Positions 2,731 to 62,782 of a DNA stretch of 64,000 bases are shown here, piece after piece (the first letter of the stretch is position 1; every line of letters begins with the position of its first letter). Source of the stretch: Cenococcum geophilum 1.58 (lineage: Eukaryota; Ascomycota; Dothideomycetes; Gloniales; Gloniaceae); NCBI GenBank assembly GCA_001692895.1, contig KV748205.1, positions 1,302,001 to 1,366,000 on the forward strand, read 5' to 3'. The notes below the pieces were generated by a model. That model had not been told where the DNA came from and searched no databases. It saw nothing but the letters and a program-made list of their open reading frames with translations. A program made the translations under genes and the position numbers.

Positions 2731-2934
2731 AAGAGAACCGTCGCTATATTATATTAAATTATCTAAAATAATATAATTTATTTTGCACCAACTGCGTAGG
2801 AAGAGCAATACCTATTTATTGCTTAAAGTAAGTAAATATATAGAATGTGTAAGAAGGGGCATTATATACAAAATGCGCGAGGAGGGCCATTATATATTAA
2901 TTGCGCATTAAGTGGCAAAATGCGTAATTAGCTG

Positions 2935-3091
2935 CACTGCATTGTTAAATACAGCAGTATGCCGTAAGTATATTATTAAATATAGGCAGTATATACCGCA
3001 CTGCATTATTAAATATAGCAGGTATGCAGCAGTATGCCGCACTGCTTATTAAATACCAGCAGTATGCCAGCAGTATACCGCACTGCATTAT
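2935..3091. repeat. GCAGTATGCCGCACTGCATT repeat
   Basis: About four or five irregular copies of a 30-35 bp unit containing GCAGTATGCCGCACTGC. Copy 2 of the parent element has only one such unit (near 26814-26840), so this array expanded in copy 1. Confidence 0.8.
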
Positions 3092-3093
3092 TA

Positions 3094-3863
3094 CAGTCCC
3101 TCGTCAAAAGTCTCCGTGCCGAGGTCACGCCAAAAATGACACTTTTTGCCAAAATACTATATAAAAGTCGCATAATTAATTCTAGAGCTTAAAAAAATAT
3201 CTAAAGCTACTTATAGATATATAATCTAGTAATCGCGATACTTTTTGAGTATTTAAAATCCATAGTCCTTTATTAAAAGTCTCTAGGTTTTACCAACTTC
3301 CTACTAAAACTTGCTATATTGAGCATATACTTTCTATTACTAGATATTAAAAATATTACNTAAAAAATTAATATCTTATAGGGATTTGCTTTTATTAAAA
3401 CTCTCTCTATTTAAANTTTTAATTAAAAAGTATTAAAATTTGTTATAAGGTTATAAACTTAAAAAAGAGTAAAAAAATGCAATTTCCCATACAAATTTGA
3501 AAAATTAAGGGTACAAAGGGTTATAATAAACTTTCACACTTTTAAAATTNAAATTTAAATAAAAAAAGTTATAGTAAACCTAAATATCTATAAGATATNA
3601 AANTTTTAAAAAATANTTTNAATATTTAGTAGTAGAAAATATATATTATAGATTTTAGATTTTAGTAAAGAATTAATAGGATTTCTAAAGGAGTTATAGA
3701 TTTTAAATTTTAAAAAAGGGTATAATAGCTAGATTATATATATAATATAAACTTAAAATATTTTTTATAGCTTTAGAATTAATTATGTGGTTNTTATATA
3801 GTAATTTAGNAAGGTAGGTTGTCTAAAAAATGCGCTCGCACGGAGACTTTTGACGAGGGACTG
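3094..3863. mobile_element. TA-flanked foldback element with perfect TIRs (Tc1/mariner-type)
   Basis: The left end CAGTCCCTCGTCAAAAGTCT (continuing CCGTGC) is repeated as a perfect inverted copy at the right end (3838-3863). TA lies on both sides (3092-3093 and 3864-3865). Removing the element restores the repeat phrase CTGCATTATTAAATA of the host array, which supports a TA target duplication. The two halves are inverted with respect to each other well beyond the TIR: a segment with TTTCTATTACTAGATATT on the left mirrors AATATTTAGTAGTAGAAA on the right. It is therefore a long foldback MITE. There is no transposase frame. Several N bases lie inside. Confidence 0.85.
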
Positions 3864-3986
3864 TAAATATAGCAGTATGCCGCACCTTAGTCGATACCAT
3901 ACGCTACATATTATAGTGCGCGAAATGCGCATTTGGCCGCCAAATGCTGCCAAATGCTGTAAAAATGCTAGTAAAATTTTTCCTGA

Positions 3987-4994
3987 CGTCAGACTCCTCC
4001 TTCTCCCTTAAGGATTCGTCTACTTATACAATATACCCTATTATTCTATTATTGGACTCCCTATCTATATCCTCACCTCACAGATACCTAAAAAGAAGGA
4101 GATAACTAAGGGGAGGAAGAAAACGGTGCTGTAGATATATCTAGTAAGGCTATATTAGGTATTATAGTTGCATTAAAAGCAGGTTTAGTAGAGGCCTAAA
4201 AAGGTAAAATTAAACAGAAGATAATATCGGAAAAGCTAGGTAGAGCTCTTTAATTTAGCTAAATATTGCGTTCAGTATATAAGGGAGGAAGGGTAGGAGA
4301 ATACGCAGGGGAAGGCGTACTTAGGGGTTAATTTTCGTCTAAATTCTCGTTAGAGGCTATATCTAAAGAAGTGTATATAGATTAATGTTAGAAATAATTA
4401 ATTTTGGTATAAAAAGGGCTGATTTTAATAAGAGGAATATACTGTCCTTTTATACAACCTTAAGCTCGCCATACCTGCCAAAAGTCGTCCCCTAAGTTGT
4501 CCCCTAAGTCGTCCCTCTAACCCAATTACTTACCCAACCGCTTACCACTACCGTCACTACCTCTCTACTTTTTATAACCTCTACTATTACAGATAAGGCC
4601 GCTTAAAGAGGCGTATAAGTCTTTCTATATAAAGAAACGCGTTAAGTATTGTAAATATTAGTTAGTAATATGAAATTAAGAAGAGCCTTATTACAACCAT
4701 ACCGGGAGAGCACCTAATTATAGAGCTGAAGAAAATGAGTCAAAGGCGTCAAAGGCGTCGCGGTCACATCACGAGTTGAGGTTGTTCAGATATTTCCATT
4801 TAATATCGGCGATCGATCTACATACGGCTAGTAGGAGGCTTAATCGACACGCACTTACAACGAGATGTGACAAGGTGGTGTACTTTCGCATGCGATTTTG
4901 GGCGAAAAGGTACATAATTTATATTAGATCGGTACTTCTAGACGGTCGCGTAATATTACTCTAAATTTATAATACCTAAACGGGCTCTATTCCT
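3987..4994. other. Decayed DNA, no gene recognised
   Basis: Up to about 4730 the stretch is AT-rich with many stops in all frames. At 4141-4330 a plus-strand frame reads like a helix-rich peptide once TAG is ignored, but no family is recognised. The part at 4740-4960 has more balanced composition and an open 62-codon frame that I do not recognise. Confidence 0.4.
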
Positions 4995-5039
4995 ATATTA
5001 AGGCGTCTTAGTTACTATAGTGTAGTTATATATTAAAAC
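4995..5039. repeat. Left part of 35-bp tandem array, split by the Gypsy insertion
   Basis: One to one and a half units of TATATTAAGGCGTCTTRGTT-type repeat adjoin the left LTR. The same unit continues on the other side of the LTR element at 13927-14125. The last five bases before the LTR (AAAAC) pair with AAGAC after the right LTR as a target duplication with one transition. Confidence 0.8.
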
Positions 5040-5256
5040 CGTAAGGGGATCTTGTAAACAGGGGGCTATAAGGACACGATTGTAGAATAGAATAGATTGG
5101 TAAGAAAGACGAATCCTTAAGGAGGTAAGGCCTCTGGGATTGTGGAGACTATATACTACAGGCACGTGCCGGAGGCACATGCCTGGCAACTATCTGAGGG
5201 GCGTCCGGGGGTTGTCCTAAGGGCAACCCAAGGTGTCCGCAATAATATCCCTTATA
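5040..5256 (-). repeat. Gypsy element LTR (3' LTR in element sense)
   Basis: 217 bp, matching 13710-13926 over its whole length with mostly C/T and G/A differences. Includes TTGTCCTAAGGGCAACC and GGTGTCCGCAATAATATCCC. This copy is more GC-rich than its partner. Confidence 0.92.
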
Positions 5257-5272
5257 TTCCCCCCCCCCTTCT
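5257..5272 (-). other. Polypurine tract of the Gypsy element
   Basis: Read on the minus strand it is AAGAAGGGGGGGGGAA, ending exactly where the LTR begins (TATAAGGG). This is the position expected for the second-strand primer and fixes the element's orientation. Confidence 0.8.
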
Positions 5273-5699
5273 TACGGTTAGCCCCCAATCGCTATTACCT
5301 TATAGTAGGGAGATTATAAGGGCTTATCCTAGAAGGGGTTTAGAGAGATATTAGTATACCGCTATATATTATCTATCTATCTAACCCCTACTTTAAACTC
5401 TTAAAAAACCTTAATAAGGAAAAAATATAACTAGAGAAAAGATATAAGGATTGCTAGGAGACCTATTAGAAGCCTAGTAGAAGTATACTAATAACTACCT
5501 AAGCTAATATAGGGATTTTTATATAACTCTACTTTTAAGCCTTTATACTGGTCTATAATTAATTATAAGTATTATAAGCAATTTAGTGTTCTAGTATAGT
5601 TCTGTAGAACCTTTTAGTATAGAATTTAAAGTATAGAGCCTTAACTTGCTAATGTCTTTAACTATTAAAATATAATCTATAATTTATAATCTGTAATTA

Positions 5700-8600
5700 T
5701 TTTATATAATCCTCTACGTTATTAACATATCGTTTCTATATCTGCCCTTAGGCTATTAAATATAGTTAAGGTATTAATTAGTTAATTAAGGAGACTTATC
5801 TACTAAGATTTAGTGCATATTCTCTTAAATCTAATAGTCCTATACGTGTACTTAGCGTAGCTCTACTGCTTAGTAAATAGGAGGGACACTTTATAATAGC
5901 ACTTATAGCTATTATACAATTATTAAAAACGTCTATAACGTTAATCTTTAATACTATAGTATTATTTAGGTATAATTTAACCTATATACGTCTTTAATTA
6001 ACGTCTTAATTACCTTCCCCTGGCCGCGTACTTGGTTTTTTATAAGGAAGTAATAGTTAGATAATATATACTTATATTTCCTTTCTTTTAAATAACGCTA
6101 TTATAACGGAGTTATATCGGTAAGGTTGCGGCTATTTACTAAAAGGGTATTAGACGGTAAAGTATAAAGATACTTTACTTATTAAGCTTAATCCTTTTCC
6201 TTAATACCTTACTTCCCATTATTAACCTTTATTTAATTTAGACGTATCTTTAATATATTATTAAAATTTCTTATTTTTTATTATTAATTTAATATACCTC
6301 TTTATTCTCCTACTAACTACTCTTTTAAGTAAATTTTATAGCGTATCCTAGCCCTACCTTTATATATAGAACCCTAACCCCTACTAACTTATAACTAGTG
6401 CTAGTCCTACCTAAATAATTTTACCTATACATCTTTAAAAGACTAGAAATCTAATAATAGAATTCTAAAGGCTTATAATAAGACGCACTATATTAAATTT
6501 AATACCTTTAGTCCTTATAATTAATGCATGCACACTAAAAGCAGCAGTTACGTTAAGGTAAGCTTTTCTATTCTTAATAGATTTCTATTACTAACTTTAA
6601 GCTTTAATAGCTTGGGCCTAAATAGCGACGTTCCTTTAATGTTCTTAACTACTATATCGCCCGGGCTCTTTCTTATTTTAGTATAAATATTAAACAACTT
6701 AGCCGAATTTAAGACTATACCACGGCTATCTATACTGCCTATAATTCCTAGTAAGCTAGCTAGTAACGCCTAATATAAGAGTAAGGTTAGTATACTAAGG
6801 ATAGGGTAAGGGATAGGGGTAATAAGAAGAAGGTTACTGTCTACTATAGAAAGGAGTTTATATATACGCGTTAAGTTTTAAAAGAGTATAACATAATATA
6901 GTATTAGGTAGATTACCCTTTAGGTACCTAGCGAATAGGTAACTAATAGTTACTATAGCAAGGTCTTAGTGGTTCTAGGCTATATTAGCCAGCTAACGTC
7001 TCTATTTATTCTAGGCTTAAGCGTATCTTTATTAACTATAAGCTTACGCTATAAGAGCTTTATTAGTATTAGTATTAGGTGTTTAAGAGTCTCTACTCTA
7101 GCTATACCTTATTATCCTACCCCTATTTTTATACCTACTTATACCCCTACTAAGGGGTCTAGATCCCATTCTTATTAGCTATTACTTAATAGCCTAATAG
7201 ATCCTAATCCTACTCCTAATAATAAGATATAGTAGCTTTTTAGATTAGGCATTTATAGTTTAAACTTTTAAGATTTATTCTTATATATAGTAGCAATTAA
7301 GGACCTTAATTAGGTGCTTAGGAAGGCCTTAAAAGGTTTTTAGAAAGGGCTTAGAAGCCCTAAGAACAATATTCCTAGTATAGATTAATTAATAGGTATG
7401 CAATTCTAGCAAAATGCTCTATTAATTCTATACTATATATGTAAAAAGGCTAAGGACCAGTCCTACCTTAGGCTATAGCCCTAATCTTTACAGTTTCTGG
7501 AGCTTGTCCGTTCTATATCTAATTTAACCTATTTACTCTTTTTATAAGCTTTCTTTATAGGTCGCAATAACACCATAGTATTAGAGCGCTTTCTACGATT
7601 TATAGATTATAGACCTTAGTCCTAATATTCTTTTAGAATATCTTTATAATAATTAAGGTAATCCTCTAGTTTCTATATAGAGTCCTTAGTAGGCTAGCCT
7701 AGCTATTTAACTTTATATTAAAGCTTATTCTTAATAGACTTATAGTATAGTATAGCTTTAACCTTATACCGCTCGCCCACTACCTTAGGGTGTTTAATTA
7801 GGCCTAGACAGAAGTTCTTTTCTAGCGGTAGTCTATATTATAGCTTTAGTAGGTTTATATAAAATACTAGATATATATAGGCTATAAATAGGGGTAGCTA
7901 GAGACAATAGGCTAGCTTACCAATTTATTCCTTAACTTAAAAGGGACCTAAATATCTTATATTAAGCTTCTTTAATAGTTAACGGGTCTTAATATTTGTT
8001 AAATATAATAAAACCTTATCGCCTACTCCAAAATACTTATCTTAGTGCTTACGGTTATACCAAAGTCTTTACTACTCTTAGGCATTTTGTAGGCTCTACT
8101 TTATATACTTCCATTACTTCTCCTATTCCTAAAGGTATCCTTATACTCTTTAGTAGATATCCTTAGACTTCCTAATAGGATCCTATAACTAATTATACGG
8201 CCTTAGCTAGTAATTATTAGGTATATTATTAAACCTAAATAGTTAGACACTATAGGCAATCTAGATTAGTGCATACTTATATAATGCGTATTGCTTTAAA
8301 TTATAAGCGTACTCTGTATACAGAAGTAGCTTACACCAGTTATCTTACTGGTAGTTTAAATATATTTATAAGTAAGACTCTAGTTTCTAATTCTATCGTT
8401 CTATTTACCCATCCGTTTATAGATAAAAAGCTATACTATAATAGTGGTCTATCTTTAAATAAAAGCATAAGTCCGACTAGTACTAGCTTATAAAGACGCT
8501 GCCCCTATTAGTAATAATAGAGTGCGGCTAATCTACTTTAAGAAAGCATTTCTCCTTAATTAGATTAACTAGCGCTTATACGTTAATCGTCTTATTAACA

Positions 8601-11600
8601 AAAAGGTATTAAACGTACTTTAAAAACCTATTAATAAGTATAAGGACCAAATTATATATTTATTCTTAGCTATCTTTAGATAGCAGGAGATCCGTAATAA
8701 AGTCTATAGCGTAATATTGCTATAGCTTACTAGCGGGAGGAACTAATTTAAGTAGACCCTATAGCTTATACCTACGGATCTTATATACTTAATACTTCTT
8801 ATAGTAGCTAATATACTCCTTTACTTCCTAATTAAGCTTTAGCCAATAATATTTACACTAAAGTAATTCTACTATTTTTGCTTAACTATAGTAGCCGCCT
8901 AAAGGATTATCGTAATTCTTTATAAGAATCTTCTATTATAGATTTACTTCTTATAGCACCTAAACCTTACTACCTCTATATAGTAGGCCTATTAGGTCTA
9001 GTTCCTAATAGTAGCGCCTAGCAGCTTCCTTTCTATTATATTTCCAGTCTACTTCCATATTAAGGATAGTATAAAAAGCGTCCCTTTGTTACACCTTACG
9101 GATAAAATCCATTAACCTTTTAGATAGTTCCTAGGTAAAAGCTATTTTATCCTATACTACTCTAAGTATAAGACTAAATAGTACTATAAATCTTATAACT
9201 CTTTAATACGTATACTTTAGGAAGGCCGCTATAAGGTTAAAGTCCTTTAGTTATTATAAGGCTCCGAGTTCCAATTACTCTATAGCTTCGCTATTAGTTT
9301 AAGGGGATAGCTTAGCAATTAGAAATAGTATATTACTAGGTTCTAAGAATATATTAGGGATATCCTATTTAGGTATATTCGGACCCTTATTAGTAATAAA
9401 CCGGGTACTAGCTAGAACGTTAATAGAAACTAATAGGGCTTATACCGCCTAAGACTTAGTATATAGAGCTATAGGTACTTAAGCATCCTATACCTAGAGC
9501 TTATTCTACAATATAGGGAGTAAGATATTTATTATCTATTTTCCTTCTCCCGTTTTAAAGCCTTTAGTATAGTCTGGCCGTCGTAACGGTCTATTAATAG
9601 GGTTATTTTCCCTTAGCTTATATTTAATCTTAAAATTAAATTATATAAGCTCCTCTACCTATTTATCTTATTAAGGTATAAGCTCCTTTATAGTTATAAA
9701 GTAGCGTAAATTATAGCAATCTAAAAGTATACGAGTGGTATAGCTCGCGTACTTAAGGTAGTGTTACTACTATTTAAAGCAGTTAACTATAGCCAGCAGT
9801 TCCTTATTATGGGAATAATACCTAACTTTAGGCCCCTAGAATTTTCTGCTATAAAATACTACTAGTCTTTAGTAGAGCCAAGTAGCGTCTAAATACCTAT
9901 TAGGTTATAGTAGGATACTAATAAGGGCAAAATTTAATACATTAGTAATTATTATTAATAGCTAATCTAGGTTAAAATACCGTAGTAATAAAGCCTTTGT
10001 AAATTTTACATAAAGTTTTTAAAAGGCCTCCTATATCTTTCCGGGCTATAACTATGGTTTATTCTATTTAGTTAGTCCCTTCTTAGTTTTCTTCCTTACC
10101 GCCTTTAAGCTTTTTACTTCTTAGGTTAGGTCTTAAAAAGCTTCCGTAATATAATTAGATAGGTATTAAGCAACGTCCGAGTTATTATAAATAAAGCGCC
10201 TATAGAAATTAGCAAAGCCTAGGAACACTTAAACATCCTAATAGCTCTTTAGCTCTAGCCACTCCTAGATTATCTACACCCGTATTAGGTCTATAACTAC
10301 ACCTATAGGTGTTATAATATAATCTAGGAACTTAACCTACTTAGTATTAAAGATATACTTTAACGCCTTAGTATAGAGGCCCTAATTATCTAAGCATTCT
10401 AGTACTTCGCAGACATGTTACTTGTGTTAATCCTTATTTTTTTAAGTAGATTAAGATATTATCTAAATAAATAACGTATATACGGTTAACTAGTCCCCCT
10501 AAGGCTCTATAAATATATAATTAGAATATTATAGACGTATTAGCTAGCCTAAAAGGCATTACTAAATACTTAAAGTAGCCGTATTAGGTTTTAAAAGCGG
10601 TCTTTTATTTATCCCCTTCTTTAATACGGAGCCTATAATAGGCGTCTTATAAATCTAGCTTTATAAAGATCTTCGCCCTAAATAGTTAATCTAGTATTTT
10701 ATTAACTAGTAGTAATAGGTAACGGTTTTTAATTATAATCTTATTAAGACCGTAATAGTCTATATATAGCCTTATAGTTTTATCTAGTTTTAAAATAAAG
10801 AGGATTAGTGCGCCTACCGGTAACTTACTAGGCTAAATCTACCTCTTTTTTAGTAAACTATTAAGGTACTTCTATAGGATCTTAAGCTCTTTATAAAAGA
10901 GGTTATAGATAGGAAGGTTTAGCGGCTATTTACCTTCTTTTAGATTAATTATATAATTATACTCCAAGTTCTATAGTAGGACTTTGGCTCTCCTACCTAA
11001 AAATACCCTTAGTAAGTCCCTTAGGCCTACTAAAATATTTAATAAATTAGGGTTGCGTTTATCCTCTATATTATTATTAGGTAGGTTTTAAAGCTCCCTT
11101 AGGATACTTACAGGCAGCGTTATACGCTATAGTAGTTACTTATACATAGTTACTACCGTACGTTATACCGTTTTATACAGTAGCTAGTAAAGAGTAGGGA
11201 ATTCTTTAACGCAGCGTTTAAGGTGCCGTAGTATACTCTCTACGTATTACTTAAGCTAGAGTAACCTATAACGGTTAAAGTATCTTATAAAATCCTTAAG
11301 ATCGCCGCCTCCCTATAATATCTCCGCAACCTATCTAGTAGTTCCCTATAGGGTCTCTATTATAAAGGGGTTATTACCTATACTAGGCTCTATACCTATC
11401 TTGCTATTAAATAGGGGTTAGATCTAATACTTCTTTAGGTATAAAGCGTATACTATTTCGCCTAGGGCTATATTCTCTAGGATATCCTTTAGGCTTATTA
11501 GTAATATACACCCTTTTAAATCTTTATTGTTCTACTATTTAAAGGCTTCTATCTTAAAGCGTATTTTAAAATCTACTTCCGCAAGCTAAGGGTATTTAAG

Positions 11601-26710: not shown

Positions 26711-27057
26711 TTAGGAAAAAATTTACCAGCATTTTTGTAATATTTGGCAGCATATTGCGGCCAAATGCGCATTTCGCGTATTGTAACGTATAGCGTATGG
26801 TATCGACTTAGGTGCGGTATACTGCCGCATTTAATAAAAACCAACAGCTAATTGCGCATTTACGGCTACTTATACTTAATGCGCAATTAAGATATAATGC
26901 CCTCTTTGCGTATTCTATATATCTTACTTATTTTAAGTAATAAATAAGCATTGCTCTTTCTATGCACTTAATAGTATTTACTTAGTCTGCGCAGTTAGTG
27001 CAAAATAAATTATATTATTTTAGATAATTTAATATAATATAGCGATAGTTCTTTTCT

Positions 27058-27317
27058 ATCTACCTATTTACTAACTTACCTACCTACCTACCTACCTACC
27101 TACCTACCTACCTACCTACCTACCTACCTACCTACCTACCTACCTACCTACCTACCTACCTACCTACCTACTACCTACCTAACCTACTAACCTACCTACC
27201 TACCTACCTACCTAACCTACCTACCTACCTACCTACCCTACCTACCTACCTGCCTGCCTGCCTATCTGCCTACCTACTTACCTACTTACCTATCTACCTA
27301 TCTACCTATCTATCTAC

Positions 27318-27360
<43 letters not shown>

Positions 27361-27373
27361 CCTATCTATCTAC

Positions 27374-27409
<36 letters not shown>

Positions 27410-27440
27410 TTATCTATCTATCTATACCTACCTATTTATA
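27058..27440. repeat. CCTA/CTAT tetranucleotide array, copy 2
   Basis: Long pure CCTA run (27058-27250) followed by CTAT-rich repeats. Complement of the GGTA/GATA array of copy 1, and purer. Confidence 0.97.
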
Positions 27441-27515
27441 CCTACCCGTCTATATTACCTTAATTTAATTAATTAATTTAATCGTTTATAGTGTTCGCTA
27501 GCTAGTTATTTAAAC

Positions 27516-27770
27516 GGTTATCTAGCTCTAGCAATGGTTATCTAGCTCTAGCGACGGATATTTAGCTCTAGTAACAATTGTCTAGCTCTAGCGACGGCTA
27601 TCTAGCTTTAGCAACAGTTGTCTAGCTCTAATAATAGTTATTTGGCTTTAATAACAGTTATATAGCTCTAGTAATGGTTATCTAGCTCTAGCAATAGTTA
27701 TCTAGCTTTAGTAACGGTTGTTTAGCTCTAGCAACAGCCGTCTGGCTCTAGTAATAGTTATCTACTAGCT
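27516..27770. repeat. 20-bp satellite, copy 2
   Basis: About 13 units of TCTAGCTCTAGCRACGGTTA, the complement of the 20-bp unit in copies 1 and 3, with heavy C-to-T/G-to-A change (CGTCG has become variants such as CGATTG or AATGG). Confidence 0.93.
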
Positions 27771-27915
27771 ATTGTTCTAATGTCCCCCTAGGTAGGGAGG
27801 ATATAAAGAAGGAAGGGTAAAAAATAAGGTGGCTATCTAGGTATATATAGGGGGTATACTTAGCAGAGGCATATATAGAGGCTATTAGGAATATAGTATG
27901 GACCCAATACAGAGC

Positions 27916-28125
27916 TTTATATAAAGCCTCTATATATAGAGCTTCGCGTAGAGCTTTATATAGAGCTTTATATAGAGCTTTATATAGAGCTTTATATAGA
28001 GCTTTATACGGAACTTTATATAGAGCTTTATATAAAGCTTTATATAGAACTTCGTATAGAGCTTTATATAGAGCTTTATACGGAACTTTATATAGAACTT
28101 TATATAGAACTTTATGCGAACCCTC
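27916..28125. repeat. 12-bp satellite, copy 2
   Basis: About 17 units of TATATAGAGCTT, the complement of AAGCTCTATATA. The TGCAC/TACAC of copy 1 is almost always TATATA here. Confidence 0.93.
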
Positions 28126-28130
28126 TATAT

Positions 28131-28281
28131 TAGGAAAAAATTTATTAGCATCTAATTTTACTTTTCTGCCATTTTAGCATTTTCTAGCATTTAGCAGCTA
28201 AATACTAGAAAATGCTAGAAATGCTAGAAAATGCTAAAATGGCAGAAAAGTAAAATTAGATGCTAGTAAAAATTTTCCTAA
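28131..28281. repeat. 151-bp terminal palindrome (hairpin)
   Basis: TTAGGAAAAAATTTATTAGC at the left is mirrored by its complement at the right end. The arms continue inward through ATTTTACTTTTCTGCCATTT and TAGCATTTTCTAGCATTT to a short loop (AGCAGCT). The arms are nearly perfect, about 70 bp each. It forms one complete end of the composite element; copy 1 has a longer, repeat-expanded version at 786-1092. Confidence 0.9.
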
Positions 28282-39121: not shown

Positions 39122-39727
39122 TTATACATTCTAGCTAGACTAGCCTCTTACAATTTAGTATAGTTAGTAAAAAGCTTAGTAGTAGTAGAGGTAAAGGATA
39201 GAAATATACTAGTAATATAGCTAAGCTGCTTTACTTTAATCTTATGCTTCATAAGCATCTTTATAAGTATTTCTACCTATTATTTACTACTATAGCTTTT
39301 CTTATACTCTTATAGAGTAAGTATTACCTTTAAGAGCTTCCTATTTTTATTAATAAAGTAAATAGTTACTGCTTAATAAGCTATCTTATTTAGCGCTATC
39401 TAATAGTTAATTATAAAGCAAAGCTTTAAGAGAGCTATAGAAAGCCTCTTACTAATAAAATCTTTATAAACTGTAAATATTTTACTAAGTAATAGAGGTA
39501 TAAAGTTTTATAACTTTATAAATAATCCTTTTAGACTAACTAGTATATAACTATAGATATATAAAAAGGCCTAAAACTTAGGCTATTTAATATTTAAATA
39601 AGGAAGATTATAAGTAATAATAAGGTAGTAGAGAGAATTTAAAAAGTCCTCGTCTACGGCTTCCTTAAGGATTTTTATAATCTTTAAATCTTTTCCGTTA
39701 TTATTTTACTATTGCTTTATAAATAAA
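39122..39727 (-). pseudogene. hAT-type transposase, C-terminal part
   Basis: Read on the minus strand, downstream of the 9.15-kb insertion, the frame continues with KILKEAVDEDFLNSLYYLII, LSKIFTVYKDFISKRLSIAL and TIYFINKNRKLLKVILTLQE-like segments (CAA read as TAA at one point). It ends near KVKQLSYITS. This follows the order of hAT transposases around the RNase H fold (GYITSDNAS region). Many stops are TAG/TAA. The coding sequence was one unit with 48889-49145 before the large insertion. Confidence 0.65.
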
Positions 39728-39844
39728 GGACAGCGGTGGAGGGACACCCCCCAATTGATACGCGGACACCCCCCACTGATTAAGTTTAGTTCCTCCCTAA
39801 TTAAGTTAAAATATCACGTGAATTTAGGTTGTTTGCATCTGCAT
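39728..39844 (+). repeat. Left terminal inverted repeat
   Basis: 117 bp. Contains two tandem copies of GGACACCCCCCA separated by ATTGATACGC, then TTAGTTCCTCCCTAATTAAG and ATATCACGTGAATTTAGG. It matches the right TIR apart from one fewer 22-bp unit and single-base changes. Confidence 0.95.
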
Positions 39845-39944
39845 TAGTGCGCACGTCGCGCGCCTATACCTTATCTCATAAATCAGACCCCCGGGGAGAA
39901 ATCCCGCCACGGCGTGACGCTAAGGATCTAGTGCCACGCTTGTG

Positions 39945-40016
39945 GACTCCTGCAAAGTCCTGAGCCAATCAAATTACTATACCCTAGTCCTGTAAAGTCC
40001 TGAACCAATTACATTA
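39945..40016 (+). repeat. ACTCCT motif, left subterminal pair
   Basis: ACTCCTGCAAAGTCCTGAGC followed by CAATCAAATTA (39945), and AGTCCTGTAAAGTCCTGAAC followed by CAATTACATTA (39986): two copies 41 bp apart. The inverted form lies at 48296-48325 near the other end. Confidence 0.8.
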
Positions 40017-40228
40017 CACCGAGAGGAATATCTCCCTGAGAGTCTGAGAGCTTATAGGAGCCCTTTATATACAAACTTAAAGTTTCTTATTAGGCGACAA
40101 CTCTTCTATTACAACGCTATATCTTATACCCTAAATTAACTCTAAAATACTTCCGACCGTATTTAATCGAAAGCTATTTACTTCCTCTATCTTATTAAGA
40201 AATAATAGACGTTACCAGCAGAATACCT

Positions 40229-43037
40229 ATGCCCCTATCCGACGATTCGCAAAGCCTTTTATCTAGCGTCCCTCCTAGCTCTCTTCCGCCTTCTGATAAA
40301 TATCCTAATGGGTATCTTAATAAACCCGACAGCGATATGGATTACCTTAATAATGAACTTAATAGCGACGCTATTAAGGCCCTTTAGCCTTCCTCTGATA
40401 GACCTTCCTCTCCTACCCGCGATCGATATAATATAAGCGATAGGGAACGGCAGTCTACGCAATTTAAGCTATAATAGGTGGCTAATATACTACGCCGCGT
40501 TTAATGAAGCTTTTAAGGCTTTATGCTTGCTTAGGTTAGGTTAGAAGAAGGCTAAGAGGTTATAATTAAGCACCGCCTGTATAGCAGTCAATAATAGCGA
40601 CGGCTTAAACTAAGGCATGCTATAGACGATCCGCGCATAGGGGATATCTGCTTGCGTTGTTCTCTAGTAGACTGTTTTGCTGTAGAGCTTGATAATCTTA
40701 TCTATTAGCCTTACTTTGCTTAATTTAATCATACTATGGACCTAAAGACGCTTAACTTTGAGCTAGCCTTTAGGACTATCTAGGAGGTTGCCCCTATATA
40801 GCATACTGTTCTTATAAGACTTATAAGCAATTAGCGCGCCCACTAACCTAGTTACGACGCTCTGCCTTAGACTAATGCGTTATTTAGGCGATTGTTTACT
40901 ATTACTAGTATAGTATATTATTCTTAAGCTAAAAAGCGATCCGCCTTCCTCTCTTTAATACTAGATATCTATCTAGTAGGCTCTGGTGTAAAGCGGTAAG
41001 TAATTAAGACTCTGTCAGGGCTTAGAATATATTATAGTTACTATTAGGCTAGTTGGTTAATAAATAAGATCGTTAAGGCGGCAGAGGTATAGTATCTAGC
41101 TTCTCTAAACTCCTAGGCTAACCTGCTAACTTCTTTAGAAATAACTCCAGCTTTAAGCGTCTAATAAGTAGATAGTAATTGTTTATAATAACGTCAACTT
41201 TAAAGACAGAAAAAGGGACGAGGTTACGGGCTATACGGATACTATGCGGTTAATAACAACGGCGGCTATTGTTCTTTACCCTAAGCTACTAACTTCGGGC
41301 CTATATTAGTCTATGCATAATCCAATAATACCCCTTAGGCTTAAAGATATATTGGCTGCCCCTAGTATATCTAGTAAAGACGGCGGGATTAGGTTAAGTA
41401 TTATACGAAGCCTTATATTAGATGCAATTAAGAGAATTTATACAGCTGGCGTTACTTCTGTATTTAGAGATAGTAATTGCTATCCTAAAATGCTAAGTAT
41501 GTATTGTCTTAACGTGAACAAGACTAAGTTCTGGTAATTTGGGGCTATATTTAAGGACGAGGGTACTATTAAAGGTATATATGGCGTCTATAAAAGTATA
41601 TTCCTAGACTAGCTTAATCTATAGGCTCCAGAAGACCCTACCGAAGCTAGGGCTGTCTATAACAACTTCCGTAATCGGCTCTGGCTTATCTATAGAGACT
41701 AACTTATAGCACGCTATATTAGGGCTATCAAAAACGAGCAAACCTAGGCACGCCGACCATATAACGGACGGGATTGGCTTCTTAGTTTACCTATATAGTT
41801 CTATATCCAGATAAACCTACTAAATACTATTATCCGTACGTATTAGGCACCCACTCTTTCTAGAGAGGAGGCTTATTATTGTATACGAGCTAATACTACC
41901 ATATAGGGTCGCAGTTAGTGTAGTTAGGAGAATGCTAAATACCACCTAATGGAACCAATTGTTGCGTAGGGCTTTATAATACGCGTAGTTGCATTATTTT
42001 ACGCGGCAATGCGACGTAGGGGTTACCTTATTGCCTCTAGTAGAGACTTCTTTAAGCGAATAGACCACGTTACTAACGCTATTAGTTCCCTTACACCGGA
42101 TTAATTTTTAGAACTTATAGAAGACGTCCGTCTAGCTATATTTATATTAGATGCGTGGAATAGTAATAGTTCTACTAAGCAACTATATAACGATATTGAA
42201 TTCCAGACAATATGTCGTATGCTTTAAGAGGTCGAGCTATTTTTATCTATTCGGTATGCTGTTAAATATACAGATATAGGTATACTAAGGCACTTTATTA
42301 ACCCTCTTATTATCTACTTTTTTGGCGCATCCCAGCATAACTATAGCCGCGAGATGTTATTCTATTGGTGGAATCTCTCCCCGGTAAACACTCCTAAGTT
42401 ATAGCATGCAATACTATCCTCTGGGCTTATAAACTGGCTTAGTAGGGCAACTATATATAAAGTAATTGACCTTAGGCTTAAGTATCTTAACGGTAGCTGT
42501 AAGATTAAAATAAAGTGTTATAAGAACTTAACCTATAATACGGATATTATATTTAACCAAGTATATCTATTAAATACTTAGGTTAGAGCTTTACGTAAAA
42601 GACTAGAGGCTATATTTAGCGAGCACATGCTTAGGAGTTATACTACTGCTATAGTATTACCGGATATGTTTTTACTCGCTCATACTCTCTTTACTTTAGA
42701 TTTAGCTGAACCGCGGAGTACTAAGTAATTAGCTAGTATAAAGTTCTTTAATTCTTCTAATATCTTATAAGAAGGTATTAGGGTGCTAGCGGATAAGGTT
42801 AATTAGTTTAACTAATAGCATGTTTAACAATTAGATACAATTAGAGGGTCGTATTCTTTTAAGACTATAGATAATATTAATAGATTTGCCAATATAAAAG
42901 ACTATACTGACTAGGTTGGGGAGGGGTTAGATAGGGTTATTAATCTAATAATTAACCTTATAATAATCGACCTTATCAACCTTATAGGAATTAGGGTAGC
43001 TAACTAATCTCTAAACTCCTATAAACTCCTAGACTAA
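40229..43037 (+). pseudogene. Transposon ORF resembling the fungal DUF6589 family (putative transposase)
   Basis: Starts at ATG 40229 (MPLSDDSQSLLSSVPPSSLP), a Ser/Pro/Asp-rich leader. The conserved part runs from about 41175: NNVNFKDRKRDEVTGYTDTM, then LTSGLYQSMHNP, KTKFWXFGAIFKDEGTIKG, LWLIYRDXLIARYIRAIKNE, NAKYHLMEPIVAQGFIIRVV and YYCIRANTTI (X marks a TAG). Frames shift between segments, partly from introns. It ends at TAA 43035-43037 inside an ACTCCT motif. The resemblance to DUF6589 proteins, which are abundant and repeat-associated in fungi, is from memory. A catalytic role in transposition is inferred from its position as the only large non-helicase ORF. It is damaged by TAG codons (CAG/TGG expected). 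Confidence 0.6.
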
Positions 43038-43156
43038 TTAAATACCTATGTTTATTAATGCTCCAAACCAGTATACTAGCAACAACTCCCTTAGGTTAAA
43101 TTTGCCTAATCCTTAAACTCCTATAAACTCCTATAAACTCCTAAATCATATAAACT
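43012..43156 (+). repeat. ACTCCT motif, gene-1 end cluster
   Basis: AAACTCCTATAAACTCCTAG (43012) contains the stop codon region of the upstream ORF. Three more units AAACTCCTATAAACTCCTAT follow at 43115-43145. Confidence 0.8.
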
Positions 43157-43291
43157 TATGCATAAACTTTTATATATACTTTTATACGAAATTTTATATA
43201 AGATAGTAACAGAACCCGGCAACTATATTTAACTACTATCTACTTATACTACCTACTAGGTAACTCTAGGGCTTCCATAATACCTTATAGT

Positions 43292-43465
43292 TAAGCCCGC
43301 ACTAAACAGTACCGTTATTTAGAATTACCCCTTAGATTAATATAGCCGAATTAAAGCTTACCTATAAAGGATGCTTTACAGTTAGGCCCGCACCGGATAG
43401 TATCGTTAACTAGGTTTTACCCCTTAGATTAACACAGCCAGATTAAAGCTTACCCACAAAGAACA
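43292..43465. repeat. 90-bp tandem duplication between the element's genes
   Basis: Two copies share CCCCTTAGATTAA, GATTAAAGCTTACC and a GCCCGCAC start, offset about 90 bp, in the non-coding zone downstream of the DUF6589-like ORF. ACTATAAAAGCCGCC just right of it could be a TATA box for a plus-strand transcript. Confidence 0.6.
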
Positions 43466-43552
43466 TACTATAAAAGCCGCCACTTTAGCATACCGGAGTG
43501 CCAGAAAGCAACGCCAACCTACCCCTCCCTTTACCTCTACCCCCCCTCCCCC

Positions 43553-43849
43553 TTACGCCGTAATGCCACTACTGCTAGGACCTAGTGGTGGACCACTAGA
43601 CGGCTTGTACGCCGCCAAAGACCTTAGCCCAGGAGGTAGGGGCGAGGGATCCTTAGGGTCCTTACGCCTACGCTTTAAGAGGCTGCACCCACCAGAGCGG
43701 GCCGCCACTTAGTAGCGAGCGTAGGTATCCCTAGGCCTACTCACCTGCTATATACCCTTTTTAAAGTATACCTAACACTCATCGCCCAAGGCTTGGTAGG
43801 TAGTACATCGCTTACCGCCTACTAACTCTACCCCTAACTCCGTCTCCAT
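43553..43849 (-). pseudogene. Small Cys-containing ORF inside the 9.15-kb transposon
   Basis: ATG at 43849, TAA at 43553-43555: 99 codons in one frame, with three internal stops (two TAG, one TAA). The product would begin METELGVELVGGKRCTTYQA and contain CTTYQALGDEC, then GGC, then a basic LLKRRRKDPKDP and a Pro/Ser-rich end. Cysteines plus the basic stretch suggest a DNA-binding or zinc-binding accessory protein, but no family is recognised. It may be the last exon of a longer minus-strand gene starting near 44430. Confidence 0.5.
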
Positions 43850-44035
43850 TATCCGGCCAATATAGCCCTAGTCTCTCTACTTATTCGGCCCTATAGCCGC
43901 TAACCCTGCCACCAATTACAACCACCATTTACCTTAGGCGGTGGGGGCGTACGCGGCAGTTGTCTTGCCGTGGGGGGCCTAAGCCCACGGCAGGCAGACG
44001 GGGTTAGCGCGCTAGGTAAGGGCAAACCCAGTAGT

Positions 44036-44424
44036 AGTAAGGGTGGGTAGCAGAAGGGTAGATAGCGGGGGGAGGGTTAGGGCGGGAGCCAGGGCTAGGG
44101 CCAGGGTTGGTAATAGTAATGGTGGTAGTAGTCTATAAATATATGTGAGCTAAGTATATACTATATAGTTATTAATACTTACGGCTCCTCTTTTAACTCT
44201 CTACCGCTAAACCATTTATCCTTATCCTTATCCTTGTCATTAGCGGCGGCAGCAGGCGGCAGCGGCGGCGGCAGTACTAGCGGCGGCAGCGGCGGCAGAG
44301 GAGGAGGAGGTGGTGCTGGTGCTGGTGCTAGTACTAGTGCTAGTACTGTTACTACTGCTAGTGCTACTAGGGGGGAGGGCGGCGGCGAGGGCGAGGGCGA
44401 GGGTAAGGGTAAGAGCGCCTATTA
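44036..44424. repeat. GC-rich low-complexity segment
   Basis: GGCGGC, GGTGCT and GAGGGC hexamer-like repeats. Plus-strand reading gives Gly/Ser/Ala only; the minus strand gives Pro/Leu/Ala then NDKDKDKDKWFSGRELKEEP, followed by GTAAGT. The minus-strand reading with its splice donor is more protein-like and could be the first exon of the small Cys gene. Confidence 0.45.
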
Positions 44425-44749
44425 AATCCAGTTAGTTATATCTCACAGTTAATAGTTAGAGTTCTAATACTAACTACGTCTTAATACGAATTCTGCTAGA
44501 CCAAAGCTGGCGATAACGAAGGAGGGCCATAGCCCGTAGTATTCTCTCCTCATTAAGGAGGACGTTGGGGGGGTACGCACGCACCTAGAGAGCAGAAGGA
44601 GACATTTTAAAAGCTTTTTATTAATAAAAAAAGCCTTAATAGGAGACGGTTAGGATATAAGTACAAAGAAGAATTTTTATAAGGTTAAAAATATTATTAA
44701 ACGAAATTAGAATTTTAATTTATATTTACTTTAATATTCTTAATTTTCT

Positions 44750-44905
44750 AAACTACTACAAACTCCTAGGCCAATTAAAAATAACGTACTATCTCCTGTA
44801 AACTCCTATAAACTCCTATAAACTCCTATAAACTCCTAAGCTAATTAAAAACAATATAATATCTTCTGCGAACTCCTATAAACTCCTAGGCCAATTAAAT
44901 ATATT
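44750..44905 (-). repeat. ACTCCT motif, helicase 3' cluster
   Basis: Three groups: ACAAACTCCTAGGCCAATTA (about 44758), four tandem CTATAAACTCC units (about 44808-44842), and GCGAACTCCTATAAACTCCT (about 44868) then AGGCCAATTA. The helicase stop codon (44876-44878 on the minus strand) lies within the last group. Confidence 0.8.
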
Positions 44906-47736
44906 CTATATATCGATATAAAAGTTCTTATTACCCTTTAGAGTTATATGCCTTATACGCCCTCTCTTTAAAACAGGTATAAAGGTTAGCATTTTATCTG
45001 CATTTAAATCTCTCTCTACTAACAGCAACCGACGTATTAACGGGGTAGTAGGCTCTAAACTATTACGCCTTTACCTTTATCTTTTTTAACTAAAAGTAGC
45101 ACTTTTCTGCGTATCTAATACATTAATAACTAGCTGCTGGACATTTAACTAACTGCTATTAGGGCTATACCTAGTAACGTTTACTCCTAAGATGCGAGCT
45201 TATTTAAGCTGTCTTATAGCACACTAAATACCTTTTAATATACCATTAGGTGGAACAGGTAAGGTTAGTAATAGCAATACTGGCGTACTAATTACTCTAT
45301 TAACCCATTCTTCTAGTTATAAGGTTAACGGTAGTATACTAACTCTCGCTATACCTAACAACGTATATTTATTAGCTCCAGCTATCTTAATTGCGCGTAA
45401 CTATATAGCCCTTAACGCCTCTCATCTCGCAACCTATATAGTAAGAGTATTATCCCTTTTACAAATAGTTGCGGCGTAATTAGATGCACTAGTATAAGAT
45501 TCCTAACTATGCTGGCCTTATAACTCCTATAGCTGCTATTACTGCTTTCTTATATATCTTATAGCCTTTATCTTAGTATATAAATTGTTAACCTCCTTAA
45601 TAAAGTACTAAAGTTGCTCTACTAATAGTTGCCTAGCCTCTTCTCTATAAGGCCATATTTAAAGTAAAGAAGCTTTAGTATAGAGACAATTAAAGGTAAG
45701 CGTATCCTAAAAGTCCGGCCCTAGTTTGTACACATATACAAGCTACTAGCGGCATATTTTATTTATATACCTATTTGGTGGTATAGGGAAGCGCCTACCT
45801 GTACTATATAATACTTCCGCCTATATAGTTATCTATTTATTAATAAGAGTTAGGGCAAAATAAGGTCGCGAACCGCCTTTTAGCTAAGTAATTAGTAGTA
45901 GGACATCCGGAGCCTAGGTAAGAGTTAAAAGTAGTACTAGATTGCAACAACTATAATATTAATCTGGCGGTACGCGGGTAACCTAAACTTGTGGTAGTAA
46001 CTTATCCTCGCCAAGGTAAGTTAGAAAGGCCTTCCGATGGCATATGCCGTTAATTATTTTTATCTATATAGCTAACAGTCCAGCGTAATAAGACATTTCT
46101 GCCTTATTCTAAAATTTAGTTATTATAGCTTTATTAACAGGAGCAGGAGCCTGGCTTAAAGCTGATATTTAAGAGGAAATACTTTCCGTGTCACTTGCGT
46201 CGCTGGGCGTATAGCCGTTGGCCAGCTAACTATATACTATTGCTTAATTAGCTAGTAGTTAATTCTAATATAGCCTATAAGTAGTCTTCTAAGGTGCGTC
46301 TAGTTATAACTGTAGCTGTTTAATTTCTGGTCTATTAACACCTTCCGTGTTAAAGGCCCAATACGGCAGAAATATATAACCTTTACTAGTCCGACCGTAG
46401 CCCTGTCCACTATAACCAAGACGCTGCCAATGATTTGCAAGACTCTTTATAATTAAAAACTTCTAAAGCGCTACCTATTTAATATCTGGGACATTAATAC
46501 CTATGCTAAGAGAGGTTGTTGCCACTATAATCCTTATAAACGATAAGGATTTCTTAAACTCTTTATATTAAGTAGTACGATTATACTCTTAAATATGTGC
46601 AGTATATACCTAGACCACATTAGTAACGCAACAGGCTTTACTATTAGCATTAGTAGTATACTGTTTGTTAGGTATAAAGGTTAAAGTCTTTATAAGGAGT
46701 GCTCTTTAGAGGTATACCGCTACTTCCTAGACGGACTAACAACCGTCTATAAAGATAATCATCTTTAGTATTTACTCTGAGACTATAGTATCTAAATCTG
46801 TATACGCGTCTAATAGGAAGTATAGTACGTCCTATAAATCCACTTTGCCTCTACTAAGCGGCAGTACGTAGATTAAGATATTAGGGCGATTTATAGAAGT
46901 CCTAATAACCTTAGTCTGGTATATGCGACTACCTATAGAGCAAAAACCGGCGTTCTAAAGAACTAGTTGCTCTACCTCCTTATTAAGTATAGCCGAATAA
47001 CCAAACCAAACTATATCCTGACGAAGTATTGTCCGTAGCTCGCCTATTATAGTAAACGCTAGTCAGAACGCTTCCTATTGCTTTACTAGATAATACTTAT
47101 TAATTATAACAAGTTTAATCCTAGCCTGCAGTTCTAGGCTCTTTAATATATTCTAGAAAGACTTTAATAAGGCCTGCTTAGGACTAAGAAAAACGTGTAT
47201 ATATATACTATCCTTTACCTTTATAATTAAGGCCTTATCTATAATCCTACTCTTAGTAGTAATAAGACACAGATTAGAACTATTAAGCTTCTAAATATCA
47301 TCCAACTGCTTATCCCTAAGCTTACTTAATGGGACTAACTGGATAGTAATCTTACCCGTTAAGATTAAAAAAGTATAAAAAATAAGACTCTTTCTAAAAC
47401 TAGTACGTGCAATAAGAAGTATATCACTAAAACTAAATATTAGACATCTTAAGGTGCGCACCTACTCCGGATAAGGGGTCTAAGGGCGGCCTCCTGGGTT
47501 TATATACTGGAGTATTTATTTAAGACATTCTTTTAAAACATTTATCTGTAAAGAAATATTTCCCTTACGCCGAGCTTCCTAATAATAGACGGTAATTCTT
47601 CTAGATTTATCCGATTAATTGCTGCAATACGACTTGGTTACAGTATTAGGCGTAGATAAGCTTCTGCCCTACCTATCCCCACCTTCCGCCGGCCGCCCTT
47701 ATACCATTTCTTCCTATAATTGCAGTTAGGCGGCAT
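44876..47736 (-). pseudogene. RecQ-like superfamily 2 helicase carried by the transposon
   Basis: ATG at 47736 gives MPPNCNYRKKWYKGG. In the middle, LVIINKYYLVKQQEAF-type sequence occupies the DEAH-box position (family-like DECHLV; Asp to Asn, Glu to Lys, His to Tyr are all G-to-A/C-to-T). Then come WFGYSAILNKEVEQLVLQNA (motif III region), NRPNILIYVLPL, KTLTFIPNKQ, SFIRIIVATTSLSIGINVPD (motif V region) and KSLANHWQRLGYSGQGYGRT (motif VI, family QRxGRxGR). That order is RecQ-type. The C-terminal half is unrecognised. It would unwind DNA, perhaps during the element's transposition (inferred). Inactive: many TAG codons and loss of Walker B and motif VI residues. It ends TAG at 44876. Confidence 0.75.
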
Positions 47737-47740
47737 TTAA

Positions 47741-47945
47741 TTGGCCTAAGAGTTTGTAGGAGTTTATAGGAGTTTATAAGAGTTAGTAAAAATATAGCCT
47801 AGTTATATTCTAGCCGGTAATAGGTGTTTACAGTAGGGCAACGCGTCCTAGTGTCCCGTATACAAGCGTTCTAGTTAACCTAGGAGTTCGTAGGAGTTTA
47901 TAGGAGTTTATAGGAGGTTATAGGAATTAACTCATAACGAAAAAT
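47741..47945 (-). repeat. ACTCCT motif, helicase upstream clusters
   Basis: Inverted copies: TTGGCCTAAGAGTTTGTAGG then AGTTTATAGGAGTTTATAAG (47741-47785), and AACCTAGGAGTTCGTAGGAG then TTTATAGGAGTTTATAGGAG (47878-47925). They lie immediately upstream of the helicase start. Confidence 0.8.
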
Positions 47946-48295
47946 AGACGTAATATGGTTGTAGTGTAGATAATAGTAGGTAGAACGGTCCGTAGGTAGT
48001 ATAAAGATGCGTTTTAAAAACGCGCTTAAGGTTTTACGCGCTATATCTTATACCTCTAAATATATTATAATTAGTATTTATACGTATAGAATTAAAGGTT
48101 ATTACCTAAAGATTAAAATATATTAAATAAAGCAATAATAACTGTTAATGGGGCCTCTGTAGAGCTAGTTGAAGCTGAGATACGCGATCTAAAATATTAA
48201 GTTACCACTAAAGAGACTCCCATAAGCTCTTAGACGCTCTGTAGAAGATTACTAGTGATAGGGGGTGCGTAGGGGGCTGAAACTAGTTTACGGTT

Positions 48296-48325
48296 CTGAT
48301 TGGTCTAGGAGTTCGCAGGAGTTAG
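48296..48325 (-). repeat. ACTCCT motif, right subterminal copy
   Basis: TGATTGGTCTAGGAGTTCGC then AGGAGTT: the complement of AACTCCTGCGAACTCCTAGA then CCAATCA. It mirrors the left subterminal pair at 39945-40016. Confidence 0.8.
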
Positions 48326-48544
48326 TGTGCGGCCCATGCGTTGCCCCGAGTCACCTGAAATCTTCTGCGGAGCGTCGGATTTATAAGATAACCCATACCC
48401 AAAATATTACCTCGCATATGCCTTACCTATTCCCACCCCAGCTGAGCGCCTCCGCGGCCGCCCGGCTGGCTCTGTTTGCGTTAATACATCGACTTGTCGC
48501 GAGCTATTAGCATTCGAACAGAACACCGGGTATACTACGCGTGG

Positions 48545-48625
48545 GTATAGTCGTGGGCGCTGGTGCGGGCGCGGGCGCGGGTGCAGGTGCAGGTGCGGGC
48601 GCAGGCGCGAGTGCGGGCGTGCTCA
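48545..48625. repeat. GGTGCG/GGGCGC hexamer repeat
   Basis: Twelve or so GC-rich hexamers (GGTGCGGGCGCGGGTGCAGG type) near the right end of the transposon. Strikingly GC-rich against the AT-rich interior. Confidence 0.85.
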
Positions 48626-48741
48626 CAGGCAATTCGTAAACATCAAGCAGATGTAGCAGCACCTAAATAAGTTCATACGGCGCCTCACAGAGTACTGCGC
48701 AATCGAGGTGTTACAGTCATAAGAGTAATTTAATTTTCGCG

Positions 48742-48880
48742 ATGCAGATGCAAACAACCTAAATTCACGTGATATTCTAACTTAATTAGGGAGGAACTAA
48801 ACTTAATCAGTGGGGGGTGTCCGCGTATCAATTGGGGGGTGTCCGTGTATCAATTAGGGGGTGTCCCTCCACCGCTGTCC
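48742..48880 (-). repeat. Right terminal inverted repeat
   Basis: 139 bp, complement of the left TIR. It carries three rather than two tandem 22-bp units (ATTGATACGCGGACACCCCC type), which explains the 22-bp length difference. Very few other differences. Confidence 0.95.
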
Positions 48881-48888
48881 TAAATAAA

Positions 48889-60706: not shown

Positions 60707-61171
60707 AAAGATGATTGCAGGGTGAATAATAATAAGTCAGGTAATCCGTGCAAGGTTTGAAGAGGTTATGACCCCACAGCCCCCACTGGTTCAACAGGCC
60801 CCTCACCTGATAAACCAATAAATGTCAAGTAAAATGTCACCAAGAGCGAATTGCCCGAATTCCCCTTCCCTCGCGTTTCCGTCGCGGCAGTAAGAAGCTT
60901 TTGCTAACCCTCCTGGAGCCAAGCCGGCTGGCGCCATGCTGCAACGGTGCCTGTTGATGCGAACGCTTTGTACGCGACCCTGCCAACTGACGTCGTCAGC
61001 GTCTGAACAACGGCAAGAGAGAGGGGGGGCACTACAAACTACTCCACTACACGTGCTCCATTTTACGATATTGATTGAGCTTCAGCGAGAACACGCAAAG
61101 TGCAATGGACACAACGGAAGCCTACATAATGGAGCGCCTCGTTGCAGTTCCTCCACAGAGGTCAGTCAGCC
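60707..61171. other. Intergenic DNA, probable promoter of the phosphatase gene
   Basis: 465 bp. A short open frame at 60936-61310 overlaps the phosphatase start in another frame and is judged a shadow. No clear TATA box. CACGTG-like ACACGTGCTCC lies at 61049, about 120 bp upstream of the ATG; in fungi CACGTG-type E-boxes are used by phosphate-response factors, so it is a candidate regulatory site only. Confidence 0.4.
61049..61056. promoter_or_regulatory. Possible E-box (ACACGTGC) upstream of phosphatase
   Basis: CACGTG core in the upstream region of an acid phosphatase gene. Pho4-type bHLH factors bind CACGTG in phosphate-regulated fungal promoters. One site alone is weak evidence. Confidence 0.3.
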
Positions 61172-62782
61172 ATGCCTCAACCCCTCAGGTCGTTGGCGGC
61201 AATATCGGCCGTGGCTTTCGTTACCTGCGCTGCCTCAAAGGCTGGTGACAATGGGCCTGTGCCAATGCAGCTTCGTCTGGCTTATGCCGGCGACACTGGG
61301 ATGGTGGTAAGCTGGAACACATTCTCTCAGCTTTCCCACCCAACAGTTCGCTATGGTCTTTCTCTCCACGATCTTCGCGAGACTGCCTGGTCAACCGTTT
61401 CCGTCACCTACCCAAGTTCGACAACCTACAACCATGTTCAGCTCAAAGACCTCAAGCCCGATACTCTCTACTATTACCAGCCAGAGTTCAGTAATTCCAC
61501 GACCCCCTACACCTTTAGGACGAGTCGTCCGGCCGGCGATGACACTCCTTATTCCATAGCTGTCGTGGTGGATCTCGGTACAATGGGCCCGGACGGCTTG
61601 ACAACACATGTTGGGAAGGGAGCCGCCAACCCGCTCAGAGTGAACGAGACCAACACAATTCAATCGCTTTCGCAATTCAAGTCTGGATATGACTTCCTCT
61701 GGCACGGTAGTTCTCAGCGCTTTTAACTGACTTATGTAATTTGTGCTAATACTATGAGCAGCTGGCGACATAGCCTATGCTGACTATTGGCTCAAGGAGG
61801 AGATTCAAGACTTTCTTCCAAACACAACCATCGCCGAAGGCGCGGTAGTCTACGAGCGGATTCTTAACGAGTTTTACGATGAGATGACGACCGTCACAAC
61901 CGACCGTCCCTACATGGTCGGACCTGGTAAACACCACGTCTTCCACTTGATGTTACCAGACTCCCCAAGCTAATTAGGATGCAAGGTAATCACGAAGCAA
62001 ACTGCGACAACGGTGGGACGACTGACAAGGTCCATAATATCACGTACGACGTCTCGATCTGCATGCCGGAACAAACTAACTTCACTGGCTACCGCAATCA
62101 TTTCCGCATGCCGTCATCTGAGTCAGCAGGGCTTGGCAATTTCTGGTATTCCTTTGACCACGGGATGGTCCATTACGTCCAGATAGACACCGAGACGGAT
62201 CTCGGCCATGGACTGATTGCCCCAGACGAGCCTGGTGGCTCAGAAGGCGAGGATGCAGGCCCTTTCTCCAACATTAAGAACGCACAAACGAATTGGCTTG
62301 CCAAGGACCTTGCATCAGTTGACCGGTCAAAAACGCCTTGGATCCTTGTGGCCGGCCACCGCCCGTGGTACATCAGCGCGCAGAACGACAGCTCGGACGT
62401 GTGCCTTGAGTGCCAGAGCGTGTTTGAGCCGCTATTCATCCAATACGGCGTCGATCTCGTCCTCTCAGGCCACGTGCACGCATACGAGCGCAACGCGCCA
62501 CTGGCGAATTATGCCGTCGATCCGGCTGGCCTCAACAATCCCAAGGCGCCGTGGTACATCACTAATGGTGCGGCTGGCCATTACGATGGGTTGGACTCGT
62601 TATTGGAGCCGCTTCCATACTATTCAGTCTTTGCGCAGGATACGGCGTATGGGTGGAGTAGGATTACGTTCCATAACTGCACGCATATGACGCACGAGTT
62701 TGTTGCGAGCGCGAATGGGACGGTGCTGGACTCGGCAACACTTTTCAAGAAACGGACATGTGACGAGCAGAAGAAGTATTAG
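61172..62782 (+). CDS. Secreted purple acid phosphatase (metallophosphoesterase)
   Basis: Exons 61172-61706, 61762-61926, 61986-62782 (498 aa). The introns are 55 and 59 nt; the second ends in AAG, giving the required G-G-N-H reading. The ATG at 61172 is chosen because TAA lies in frame upstream. The N-terminus MPQPLRSLAAISAVAFVTCA is a signal peptide (about 24 residues). A fibronectin-like domain (about 29-118) precedes the catalytic domain, which shows all metal-ligand motifs in order: VVVDLG (about 131-136), GDIAYADYW (from 180), GNHE (234-237), GHRPW (about 356) and GHVHAYER (about 395). Several NXS/T sites suggest glycosylation. It should hydrolyse phosphate monoesters outside the cell or in the vacuole with a dinuclear metal centre. 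Length is normal and no defect was seen. Confidence 0.95.

Follow-up and report, generated by a model that had tools for sequence, protein, structure and literature searches.

A probable DDE-type DNA transposon carrying DUF6589 and RecQ-like helicase genes, nested in a small non-autonomous element of Cenococcum geophilum

Here, we analysed a 64,000-nucleotide stretch of the genome of the ascomycete Cenococcum geophilum 1.58 (contig KV748205.1, positions 1,302,001 to 1,366,000; hereafter the window), which lies on contig C30 of the 162 contigs (177,193,698 bp) that were searched. A first-pass annotation had described a 9,153-bp interval of it, bounded by long terminal inverted repeats (TIRs), as one large transposon that encodes a DUF6589-like protein, a RecQ-like helicase and a small Cys protein. 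We found that this interval consists of two elements, one nested in the other (Table 1): an inner transposon that contains the DUF6589 and helicase genes as convergent pseudogenes, and a short outer element that was split by its insertion.

Table 1. Features of the nested elements in the window (TSD, target site duplication)
Feature	Position	Strand	Basis or remark
DUF6589 and RecQ transposon (actual mobile unit)	39871..48391	.	8,521 bp; sister-locus homology borders; ends and TSDs
Inner left 8-bp TSD, CCTATACC	39863..39870	.	
Inner right 8-bp TSD, CCCATACC	48392..48399	.	One mismatch
Left short TIR, TTATCTCATAAATCAGAC	39871..39888	+	16/18 identical to right TIR
Right short TIR, reads TTATCTTATAAATCCGAC	48374..48391	-	
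DUF6589 pseudogene, proposed transposase	40200..43010 (approximate)	+	PF20231 match ~41415-42617
RecQ-like helicase pseudogene	45061..47701 (approximate)	-	Helicase_C; alignment A3
Outer element, left part, including one inner-target copy	39728..39870	.	143 bp
Outer element, right part, including other inner-target copy	48392..48880	.	489 bp
Outer left duplication, TAAATAAA	39720..39727	.	
Outer right duplication, TAAATAAA	48881..48888	.	

The borders of the inner element were located by aligning the 9,153-bp unit to four sister loci (L041-L044, on contigs C1, C18, C34 and C9). Homology began at unit position 144 in all three loci that include the left side (C18, C34 and C9) and ended at 8664 or 8665 in all three that include the right side (C1, C18 and C34). 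The shared span, unit 144-8664, corresponds to 39871-48391 of the window, and the sister copies have other flanks. The termini read at these junctions are TTATCTYATAAATCMGAC, with A at base 7 in one copy, and the 16/18 match between the short TIRs of the window copy was equalled by 4 of 200,000 random position pairs. TSDs of 8 bp were present, next to these short TIRs, in all three copies with both ends read: CCTATACC/CCCATACC in the window, mismatched at one base, CAATAATA/CAATAATA on C18 and GCTCTGCA/GCTCTGCA on C34, the right end of the last (at 9331) being placed by a motif scan; the C1 and C9 copies, each with a single visible end, are not included in this count. Because the sister homology stops at 39871 and 48391 and the inner junctions have their own duplication, the inner element is separate from the 9.15-kb frame.

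The long inverted repeats are real (39742-39844 versus 48742-48844, 99% complementary; 39727-39775 versus 48833-48881, 96%), as is the perfect TAAATAAA duplication on each side of the tips GGACAGCGG..CCGCTGTCC at 39728 and 48880, but both belong to the outer element. When its two parts were rejoined with a single copy of the inner target, the resulting 624-bp sequence aligned nearly end to end with five uninterrupted loci (L004-L008) at 79-87% identity. Since the outer element occurs without the insert at these five loci, the long TIRs and TAAATAAA were assigned to it. This 0.62-kb sequence is a repeated non-autonomous family unrelated to the inner element, with at least 49 matches in the genome (40 of 297 candidates scored), 31 tip sites with two or fewer mismatches (versus 0 for a reversed control pattern) and an 8-bp TSD in all three cases with both tips read (TAAATAAA in the window, AAAATCAA at L004 and TAAATTTA on C19). 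It is because of this nesting that the ends of one element had been merged with the genes of another.

Some other copies of the outer family, at C10:1800358-1801033 and C12:353410-354073, have the terminal motif tandemly repeated at their ends. Two intervals of 10.5-11.5 kb between outer-element tips (C19:1379631-1391156, flanked on both sides by TAAATTTA, and C29:1669236-1679732) lie outside the listed DUF6589 and helicase DNA matches, and may contain further nested insertions or be an autonomous partner of the family.

Two further parts of the first-pass annotation did not hold. The small Cys protein, presumably the open reading frame at 48387-48656, starts 5 bp inside the inner end, lies otherwise within the outer element and has no Pfam match. 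For the proposed insertion into a hAT gene, none of 12 flanking frames contained a Pfam family at E ≤ 0.01, although the stop-rich flanks could hide a decayed hAT gene.

The left gene of the inner element matches PF20231 (DUF6589) at E = 1.4e-36 when stops are read as X. In the genome profile search the same domain was located at C30:1343415-1344617, with 11 TAG and 4 TAA codons inside it, and at least 102 PF20231 loci were identified among 274 candidates. In an intact DUF6589 protein, DUF6589 was the sole Pfam family at E ≤ 0.1. The first homologue search gave one match in 8000 candidates scored, and a rerun with alignment A1 gave 64. A PDB sequence search with alignment A2 revealed no match below E 0.1, and none of 98 pattern stretches from a scan of IMG/VR was related to the DUF6589 element. 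In the open-licence paper library searched, DUF6589 was named nowhere, and PF20231 appeared only in an unrelated context.

Two predicted models of DUF6589 proteins, together with structure comparison, suggest an RNase H-like core that contains a large insertion of helices, and this predicted fold resembles those of hAT, P-element and RAG1 enzymes; the comparison re-examined 1000 Foldseek chains, which leaves room for families outside that list. D311, D469 and E762 are conserved and form a candidate catalytic triad, in which E762 was placed by conservation and end offsets. The RNase H fold and triad for which the first-pass annotation had proposed to model this protein were recovered at the level of prediction. 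In the window copy, N replaces the first acid and K the proposed third. One hallmark of DDE/RNase H-fold DNA transposons, TIRs with target duplications of fixed length, is present, and the second, the fold with three conserved acids, appears to be present in the models. The predicted fold, the conserved acids, the short TIRs, the 8-bp TSDs and the recurrent pairing with a helicase gene (see below) support the view that DUF6589 is the transposase in this TIR element, which also carries a helicase.

The right gene of the window copy gave Helicase_C matches at 5e-4 and 1.4e-4, slightly short of the curated Pfam cut-off, and the degraded sequence aligns with open RecQ-like homologues (alignment A3). 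In an open 781-aa piece from a second family, DEAD and Helicase_C exceeded their cut-offs, RecQ_Zn_bind was weak (0.089), and recQ_fam (TIGR00614) reached 3.7e-30 and 105 bits, under its cut-off of 219.8. The best match of this open piece among solved structures was a RecQ (5.4e-19), and its Walker A motif reads AKTSFGKS. In total, 59 related helicase proteins were found. These matches indicate that the second protein encoded by the element, convergent to the DUF6589 gene, is probably a RecQ-like helicase of superfamily 2.

To what extent the two genes occur together was examined across the genome. The window DUF6589 DNA matched at least 51 pieces (40 of 69 candidates scored) and the helicase DNA at least 41 (40 of 71); the matches listed were merged into 39 DUF6589 and 38 helicase loci. 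Among these, a convergent helicase was present within 26 kb at 29 of 39 DUF6589 loci, in 22 cases at a distance of 2,488-2,929 bp, although two of the 29 (C37 and C76) seem to be second pieces of copies already counted, leaving about 27 distinct ones. Of the ten listed DUF6589 loci without a partner, three are close copies and seven belong to a subfamily with 66-76% DNA identity; no DUF6589 partner was listed for six of the 38 helicase loci. When 30 of the at least 102 PF20231 loci were fetched with flanks of up to about 1.5 kb, a convergent helicase was observed in 14 and none within that flank in 16, at least one of which (C23) in fact has a helicase 2.7 kb away. Both the pairing and its orientation recur in two families.

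The window element has RIP-like (repeat-induced point mutation) dinucleotide ratios: TpA/ApT is 1.73 and (CpA+TpG)/(ApC+GpT) is 0.55, versus 0.99 and 1.22 in an open relative. The copy is filled with stops and, in its present state, can encode neither full protein. A minisatellite with a unit near TAAACTCCTA is found in both orientations within the element (43082-43143, 44794-44850, 47736-47784 and 47869-47925).

Open genes were found in the second family, at the end of C41 and the start of C43, where a 957-aa DUF6589 frame is paired with a convergent helicase frame; the latter extends past the contig edge and has a length of at least 781 aa. These two loci are 99.95% identical across 5,735 bp; the left end of the family was taken as the point where they diverge, and the right end is unassembled. 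The starts of C9, C42, C74 and C149 share one mid-gene sequence, and the end of C88 falls inside the gene. A telomere link of the contig-end copies was considered, but assembly breaks in recent, near-identical copies fit better, because these four contigs start mid-gene alike and no telomeric repeat was detected in the contig ends inspected. Near-identical copies with open genes at contig breaks are suggestive of recent activity and of repeats that collapsed during assembly. Beside the C43 copy (L040, 6114-7320), open frames resemble by eye a serine palmitoyltransferase subunit, and this copy may have inserted adjacent to a host gene.

Taken together, the results make it likely that 39871-48391 represents a DDE-type DNA transposon family with a DUF6589 transposase and a RecQ-like helicase, in a copy that has been degraded by RIP and is nested in a 0.62-kb element. 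Most likely, DUF6589 would bind the short TIRs, free the ends and join them across an 8-bp staggered target, generating the 8-bp duplications, presumably by a cut-and-paste route. The helicase would most likely assist by unwinding the ends or the target, or in donor-site repair, a role suggested by the recurrent pairing. The 8.5-kb copy landed within the non-autonomous element and is now framed by the long TIRs and the TAAATAAA duplication of the latter.

RecQ-carrying DDE transposons are already known, and the excerpts of the published descriptions that we consulted allow a comparison. The RecQ of Academ has been included among the proteins of transposons with a potential part in transposition (PMC3627910). 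In a survey of 625 fungal genomes, protein domains could be recognized in 1,568 of 1,938 Academ copies, DEAD/DEAH helicase and recQ_fam being the examples named (PMC6416283). AcademH (Kojima 2020) has 9- or 10-bp duplications according to a citing paper (PMC10045372). KolobokH is described only from fungi, with the RecQ helicase downstream of the DDD/E transposase domain, and in Kolobok-1_CCri RecQ is on the opposite strand (PMC9587614). Since such elements are in print, the 'new helicase-carrying class' of the first-pass annotation was too strong, whereas its idea that DUF6589 is the transposase is supported. What is new here is this assignment, and a TSD length unlike that of AcademH or Kolobok.

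The closest alternative, to which we give about even chances, is a narrower form of this explanation: the element would be a fungal AcademH family, in which the Pfam name DUF6589 would stand for the Academ transposase and RecQ would be the AcademH helicase. AcademH is likewise a TIR DNA transposon, joins a transposase with a RecQ-type/superfamily 2 helicase in animals and fungi, and the helicase domains often held by fungal Academ copies agree with this. However, its reported TSDs of 9 or 10 bp differ from the 8 bp found in all three copies here, in a comparison made by description only. If this alternative is correct, only the 8-bp TSD and the link between the names would be new. It is possible, though we consider it doubtful, that DUF6589 is instead the transposase of a separate fungal DDE superfamily (ascomycetes and, distantly, Lactarius) with TTATCT-type short ends in the window family and 8-bp targets, in which case its cooperation with the RecQ-like helicase of the element would be independent of Academ and Kolobok. 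Somewhat less probable still is that DUF6589 is sufficient for movement and the RecQ-like gene is carried as cargo that takes no part in transposition. Many transposases of the cut-and-paste type work without a helicase encoded by the element, and DUF6589 loci without a nearby helicase were present among the matches listed; on the other hand, the pairing and orientation are recurrent in two families and, in the literature excerpts, RecQ helicases are described repeatedly from other DDE transposons. Finally, that a single 9.15-kb unit moved whole with its TAAATAAA duplication is highly improbable in spite of the long, near-identical outer TIRs and their perfect duplication, as sister copies share only the inner span, the outer element exists uninterrupted and the inner junctions bear their own duplication.

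Other known systems were also compared with the DUF6589 element. KolobokH, too, is a DDD/E transposon of fungi that has a RecQ helicase, but Kolobok duplications are TTAA and its helicase lies downstream of the transposase domain, whereas the duplications here are 8 bp of differing sequence and the helicase is a separate convergent gene. The 8-bp TSDs equal those of hAT elements (Hermes) in length; however, the intact DUF6589 protein had no hAT Pfam match at E ≤ 0.1, and the element contains a helicase gene. Kyakuja-Dileera-Zisupton elements are fungal too, with 8-bp duplications described for Zisupton, but DUF6589 was the sole Pfam family at E ≤ 0.1 in a comparison made via Pfam rather than with their sequences, and some of them carry a TET/JBP gene, instead of which a helicase is present here. 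Helitrons lack both TIRs and target duplications, unlike the DUF6589 element. Repeated subtelomeric RecQ-like helicase genes have been described in fungal genomes (PMC4522978), but the helicases here are inside TIR- and TSD-bounded elements, and the contig-end stretches inspected contained no telomeric repeat.

With these results, a testable function as a DDE transposase can be proposed for DUF6589, which Pfam lists as a domain of unknown function and for which at least 102 loci were identified in this genome. They also add an 8-bp-target lineage to helicase-carrying DDE transposons, which bears on why a RecQ-like helicase is kept; if the superfamily is separate, this alliance would have arisen on three or more occasions in DDE transposons. 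In addition, the corrected anatomy averts wrong ends in a repeat library.

Elsewhere in the window, 12-, 20- and 4-bp tandem arrays at about 971-2763 and 27011-28151 run in inverted order relative to each other at a distance of about 24-26 kb (for example, 1762-1935 versus 27793-27966, 84% complementary), and might mark the termini of a large element. Two open frames of 198 and 283 aa at 61130-62782 resemble by eye a purple acid phosphatase-type metallophosphoesterase and are likely a host gene.

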